Below, in pieces: positions 25,580 through 26,017 of a DNA stretch of 64,000 nt. Position numbers and translations under genes: made by a program. Source of the DNA: Deltaproteobacteria bacterium (GTDB lineage: Bacteria; Desulfobacterota; Syntrophobacteria; Syntrophobacterales; Syntrophobacteraceae); the NCBI GenBank assembly GCA_012517315.1, contig JAAYVE010000029.1, positions 186,001 to 250,000 of the forward strand, given 5' to 3'. Numbering within the stretch: the first letter of the stretch is position 1; every line of letters begins with the position of its first letter. The notes under the pieces were generated by a model, which made no database searches, was not told the origin of the DNA, and was given only the letters and a program-made list of their open reading frames with translations.

Positions 25580-26017
25580 CTACGGCCGATTGGTCCCGCT
25601 CATCACCAGTTCGAATGAAGGGGTGACCGGATCGTTGGTCATCACGAGAGTTGTCTTTCTGACACTGCCCTGACAGCTGAGCAGGTTCACTTCGACGCGG
25701 ATCGTTCCCTCCCCACCGGGAGGAATTTCCCGATCGTATCGGGACACGGTGCAGCCTCATTCGGGAGCGATGTCCTCGATGCGAAGGGTTCCATCGCCCA
25801 AGTTCCGTATATGAAAATCATGGCTGATTTCCGTTTGGCCGGAAGCGTAGGCGAAATCAAAAACGGAATGCAGAACCTCCACTGAGGGCACGGCAGTTTT
25901 CCTAAGCCTCGTGGAGGTCTCCTTCGCCATTTGGAGCGGCTCCCCGGCTGTGGCCAACCCGTGGGAGGCCAAGAGGCAAAGGCACAGGAACGGTAAAAGT
26001 TTTGACCACTTGCACAT
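25580..26017 (-). CDS. putative selenocysteine-containing DUF1573 protein (in-frame TGA)
   Basis: The frame from the ATG at 26017 reads through one TGA (25757-25759, codon 87) to a TAG at 25580. It encodes a signal peptide (LLPFLCLCLLASHGLATA) and an Ig-like DUF1573 domain: HSVFDFAYASGQ, FHIRNLGDGTLRIEDIAPE, then U-GCT, SRYDREIPPGGEG, VNLLSCQGSVRKT and MTNDPVTPSFELVMSG. The family motif is CGCT; here the first Cys is TGA, the second is kept. Homology continues smoothly on both sides of the stop. A hairpin follows 12 bases after the TGA. A nonsense-mutant pseudogene is the main alternative. Confidence 0.72.
25728..25744 (-). promoter_or_regulatory. candidate bacterial SECIS hairpin (DUF1573 gene)
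   Basis: In the mRNA, TCCCGA-TACGA-TCGGGA forms a perfect 6-bp stem with a 5-base loop containing one G, beginning 12 bases after the TGA. Bacterial SECIS elements lie at this distance inside the coding sequence. Confidence 0.55.

Follow-up and report, generated by a model that had tools for sequence, protein, structure and literature searches.

A short DUF1573 gene from a deltaproteobacterium with an in-frame UGA that is very probably read as selenocysteine

The window analysed here is a stretch of 64,000 nucleotides on contig JAAYVE010000029.1 of a deltaproteobacterial genome assigned to the Syntrophobacteraceae. Within it, a minus-strand gene running from 26017 to 25580 encodes a DUF1573 protein, provided that the single in-frame TGA at codon 87 is translated as selenocysteine (Sec). 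The original prediction, made from the letters of the sequence, had located this gene correctly and left its strand unstated. Its placing of the TGA within a PE-U-GCT motif (residues 85-90) was borne out, and the gene contains neither a second stop nor a frameshift over its length, including the 58 residues from Sec to the TAG. DUF1573 homology was said to continue through this last part, and the Pfam match (PF07610, residues 49-141) does span the TGA, with an E-value of 1.7e-16 and a score of 60.5 bits against a gathering score of 26.1. Inspection of the N-terminus, which has a basic start, a hydrophobic core, and an ATA-like cleavage site, indicates a likely signal peptide. The Pfam search found no enzyme domain in this protein. 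The neighbouring genes encode EVE-domain, DUF5320, rubredoxin-like, and DUF1847 proteins, and these flanking genes give no clear hint of an operon or a function.

Table 1. Features of the DUF1573 gene (window positions) and of the selC*-type tRNA loci in the same analysis.
Feature	Position	Strand	Details or basis
Probable DUF1573/OS_HP2 selenoprotein gene	25580..26017	-	145 aa with TGA read as Sec; ends at TAG
In-frame TGA, codon 87, probable Sec in PE-U-GCT	25757..25759	-	Sequence and homologue alignment
Likely N-terminal signal peptide, about residues 1-25, MCKWSKLLPFLCLCLLASHGLATAG	25943..26017	-	Read from sequence
DUF1573 Ig-like (ASH/PapD-like) domain, residues 49-141	25595..25873	-	Pfam, AlphaFold pLDDT, 2qsv match
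Cys89, Cys of the U-G-C motif	25751..25753	-	Sequence, family Cys comparison
Cys115, alternative Sec partner typical of the short subfamily	25673..25675	-	Family Cys comparison
Candidate SECIS hairpin, perfect 7-bp stem, 3-nt loop	25728..25744	-	Folding, family covariation
Second predicted hairpin, TTCCTCCC-GGTG-GGGAGGGA, in PPGGEG codons	25706..25725	-	Folding, inference
selC*-type tRNA	L075:5591-5682	-	With selB* at L075:3505-5514 (-)
selC*-type tRNA, further loci	L176:3400-3491; L166:4962-5053		

The family to which this protein belongs has a published history. Two reviews list DUF1573 (pfam07610), with the motif UGC, among selenoprotein families; the first credits a 2007 study of an Olavius symbiont as the source, and in the 2008 GOS study the family is listed as OS_HP2 (pfam07610, UxC). 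The corresponding NCBIfam model, NF041425 (OS_HP2_seleno), matches the protein over model positions 3-96 of 98 with 89.4 bits (E 1.4e-25), below the curated cut-off of 100 bits, in a search that represented Sec by Cys, possibly at some cost in score. Among paralogues in the same genome, two short Sec forms scored 77.6 and 74.8 bits, and a long Sec form scored 121.8. The proposal of a new selenoprotein family is thus contradicted by the 2007 listing, by OS_HP2, and by NF041425: the gene is a new, slightly unusual member of a family known since 2007. It shares with OS_HP2/NF041425 the domain, the position of Sec in the UGC motif, and the occurrence in Deltaproteobacteria, but differs in its score, its single-domain length of 145 aa, and its extra Cys115. 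A possible novelty is the subfamily of short exported proteins or lipoproteins that lies below the NF041425 cut-off. A gene caller to which UGA is a stop would cut the protein off after residue 86, and those short forms that were tested score under the NCBI model cut-off; annotation has thus probably missed part of this multi-copy group of exported selenoproteins in Desulfobacterota.

Homologues were surveyed in 98 genomes, comprising the genome under study and its relatives, and were present in 61 of them, with exactly one TGA in most matches. The original prediction suggested checking whether Cys and TGA alternate at the codon-87 column, and they do: among the 108 aligned rows, a few of which are one gene captured in two loci, TGA occurs in 82, TGC or TGT in 23, and TGG, ACA, and TCA in one row each. 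The UGA aligns to the first Cys of CGC, and the Cys-form relatives have Cys where this gene would have Sec. A second set, from a named genome collection, has TGA in 54 of 67 aligned matches, drawn from Desulfobacterota and from records labelled Acidobacteria, Gemmatimonadetes, Myxococcales, and candidate division CSSED10-310. Genes for Sec synthesis and insertion are all present in the genome: selA (SelA, 632.8 bits), three SelB-like proteins, and a canonical tRNA-Sec (selC), whose absence had been named as grounds for rejection, and also two SelD. Four of its five DUF1573 genes carry TGA. From these comparisons, this is very probably a genuine selenoprotein gene, with the in-frame UGA read as Sec at the first Cys position of CGCT in an exported protein, as predicted. 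The codon would be decoded by the canonical tRNA-Sec, SelA, and a SelB.

The distribution of tRNA-Sec among the relatives adds little to this picture. One genome (G089) has only Cys forms and no tRNA-Sec was found in it; in another (G039, 89% complete) the tRNA-Sec search found none, and a TGA form is present. Nearly all relatives have tRNA-Sec, so its co-occurrence with TGA forms gives no contrast. One of the two selD genes (L054, G000:C42:27607-28530) also has an in-frame TGA and is probably a selenoprotein gene itself. Two DUF1573 relatives have the TGA codon replaced, by ACA (L025) and by TGG (L026).

Insertion of Sec at codon 87 would be directed by a hairpin just 3′ of the UGA. The perfect hairpin claimed in the original prediction to start 12 bases after the TGA is indeed there, beginning exactly 12 nt downstream (TCCCGAT-ACG-ATCGGGA, 25744-25728). 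Taken from this gene alone it is weak evidence for a SECIS element; its fold z-score is -1.23, which is not significant for single-sequence folding, and a stem of at least 7 bp arises in 5% of synonymous recodings (P about 0.05). The relatives are more informative. RNAalifold gave no useful consensus fold on 73 ungapped sequences, those of non-redundant Sec relatives with standard spacing, and base pairs were therefore tallied column by column. Columns 15 and 33 are wobble sites, the third bases of codons +4 and +10 downstream of the UGA. They form a pair in 56 of the 73 compared with 29.7 expected, a count reached in none of 2000 shuffles that ignore the relatedness of the sequences, and they rank top of the 598 column pairs scanned. 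These sites are mostly synonymous (GTG with GCC, GTC with GCG, GTT with GCA), so that selection for RNA pairing is the simplest reading. Judged by this covariation, the hairpin is conserved across the family through compensatory wobble changes and is not due to chance.

Details of the element vary within the family. In this gene the 15-33 pair is a G-A mismatch and the helix is extended on the loop side instead, an arrangement shared by several relatives that have Arg-Glu there. Among the distant long DUF1573 selenoproteins of the second set, the pairing of columns 15 and 33 does not hold (10 of 54), which indicates that this form of SECIS is lineage-specific. Bacterial SECIS elements have a consensus G within the first two positions of the apical loop. 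The hairpin resembles them in lying immediately 3′ of the UGA within the coding region, but differs in that its apical loop has no G at those positions and in the restriction of its stem pattern to one lineage. It is uncertain whether the second hairpin is a functional element, because the PPGGEG protein motif itself favours complementary codons. In the relative with ACA in place of TGA, the hairpin still pairs at 7 of 7 positions and looks like a fossil SECIS left after recent loss of Sec.

Two size classes can be recognised among the Sec members, a long one (mostly about 360-420 aa) and a short one (mostly about 140-210 aa), and they differ in the cysteines that could partner Sec. Among 81 Sec members of the first set, 50 have only Cys89, two residues after Sec, 27 have only Cys115, 28 residues after Sec, 4 have both, and none has neither. 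All 49 long forms have Cys89 and none has Cys115. By comparison, 27 of the 32 short forms lack Cys89 (with Ser, Thr, Leu, Val, or Ile there), and all 27 have Cys115; four short forms, including this gene, have both, and one has Cys89 only. This complementarity gives a Fisher p of 1e-17 with relatedness ignored, and the pattern largely tracks the long and short subfamilies, so that few evolutionary events may lie behind it. In the second set, which consists almost entirely of long forms, Cys89 is present in 53 of 54 and Cys115 in 0 of 54. A cultured relative, Desulfacinum infernum, has a long Sec form. Two short Sec paralogues in the same genome (L057:1781-2392 and L060:1400-1963), with UGV and UGT motifs, have Cys at the Cys115 position, and both score under the NF041425 cut-off. 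Among the short relatives, several to many begin with a lipobox-like sequence in place of such a signal peptide. The chances are about even that these short exported or lipoprotein forms are a distinct subfamily whose Sec partner has shifted from Cys89 to Cys115, with this gene as an intermediate. If so, the partner would lie 28 residues from Sec, on a separate loop at the end of the domain where Sec lies. The alternation of Cys89 and Cys115 provides a testable hypothesis for the Sec partner in a family with no assigned function.

In the AlphaFold model, which has pLDDT above 90 over the DUF1573 domain, the turn that joins strand 78-85 to strand 89-94 holds Sec87, and Cys115 lies in the segment linking strands 103-111 and 117-127; from the topology of an Ig-like sandwich, both loops would be expected at one end of it. 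In the PDB, a sequence-profile search gave no match. The best match among solved structures is 2qsv (Z 13.8, rmsd 1.8 over 102 residues, 24% identity), followed by VesB/VesC, ASH, PapD-like, and MSP domains. The 2qsv protein, from Porphyromonas gingivalis, has the same fold but is an uncharacterised protein with a larger chain, compared with the single domain here. The product is predicted to be exported and to fold as one Ig-like (ASH/PapD-like) domain with Sec in an inter-strand turn.

Ig-like domains of the ASH/PapD-like type usually mediate binding. This, together with the lack of an enzyme domain in the protein and the possibility that soft metals could be bound by a Sec-Gly-Cys site, would suit a role for Sec in metal binding or structure rather than in a redox cycle. 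We regard such a role, which concerns the function of the protein and not the decoding of its UGA, as rather unlikely. All 81 Sec members keep Cys at 89 or 115, and most bacterial selenoproteins are thought to be redox-active, according to PMC9312934. The conservation of these cysteines favours, with some reservation, a periplasmic or membrane-anchored selenol/thiol redox centre, in which Sec87 would form a selenenylsulfide with Cys89 or Cys115. The Sec-Gly-Cys redox pair of the original prediction is one possible form of it; the second candidate partner, Cys115, had been overlooked.

Two other readings concern the UGA itself. It might be a genuine stop codon or an error of sequencing, leaving a pseudogene or a short truncated protein; the frame before the TGA would give an 86-residue exported fragment, and a close orthologue of this gene was not among the sequences compared. 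This is extremely improbable, as TGA is the commonest codon at the column in the aligned homologues, domain-level homology runs to the end of the protein, and the gene itself shows no further nonsense or frameshift change. The other reading is that the UGA is read by a second tRNA, of the selC* type, inserting a residue other than Sec. The genome does contain such a tRNA, with a UCA anticodon, discriminator A73, and an 8/4 cloverleaf (8-bp acceptor; T stem of 4 bp with a bulged A); it precedes a divergent selB*, which adjoins formate dehydrogenase genes. In selB*, however, the motif GHVDHGK has become GHVAHGK and the switch I Thr is lost, so that its product may be unable to act like an ordinary SelB. 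Furthermore, TGA DUF1573 genes of the same kind occur in four relatives (G014, G019, G021, and G024) for which the search gave a single canonical tRNA-Sec match and no second tRNA of this type. For this reason it is unlikely, on these comparisons, that the selC*-type tRNA decodes the DUF1573 gene, and insertion of a non-Sec residue at codon 87 is very improbable. Overall, the best explanation, which we hold with high confidence from the sequence comparisons, is a functional DUF1573/OS_HP2 selenoprotein gene with Sec at UGA 87.

The selC*-type tRNAs vary among the genomes. The form with a UCA anticodon and A73 was found in three genomes from two families (G000, G001, and G036), and seven others (G003, G026, G028, G030, G032, G034, and G038) have a GCA anticodon in the U73 form. 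A review of selC* describes U73 with GCA or UCA anticodons. The A73 discriminator is neither the Ser/Sec-like G73 nor the Cys-like U73. A fourth selB match (contig C53) proved to be EF-Tu and not SelB. The third selB-like gene (L061:2097-4100, minus strand) has no tRNA-Sec beside it; it has an intact GTPase motif, adjoins a gene with an HdrA-like product, and lies near a transposase-like gene.
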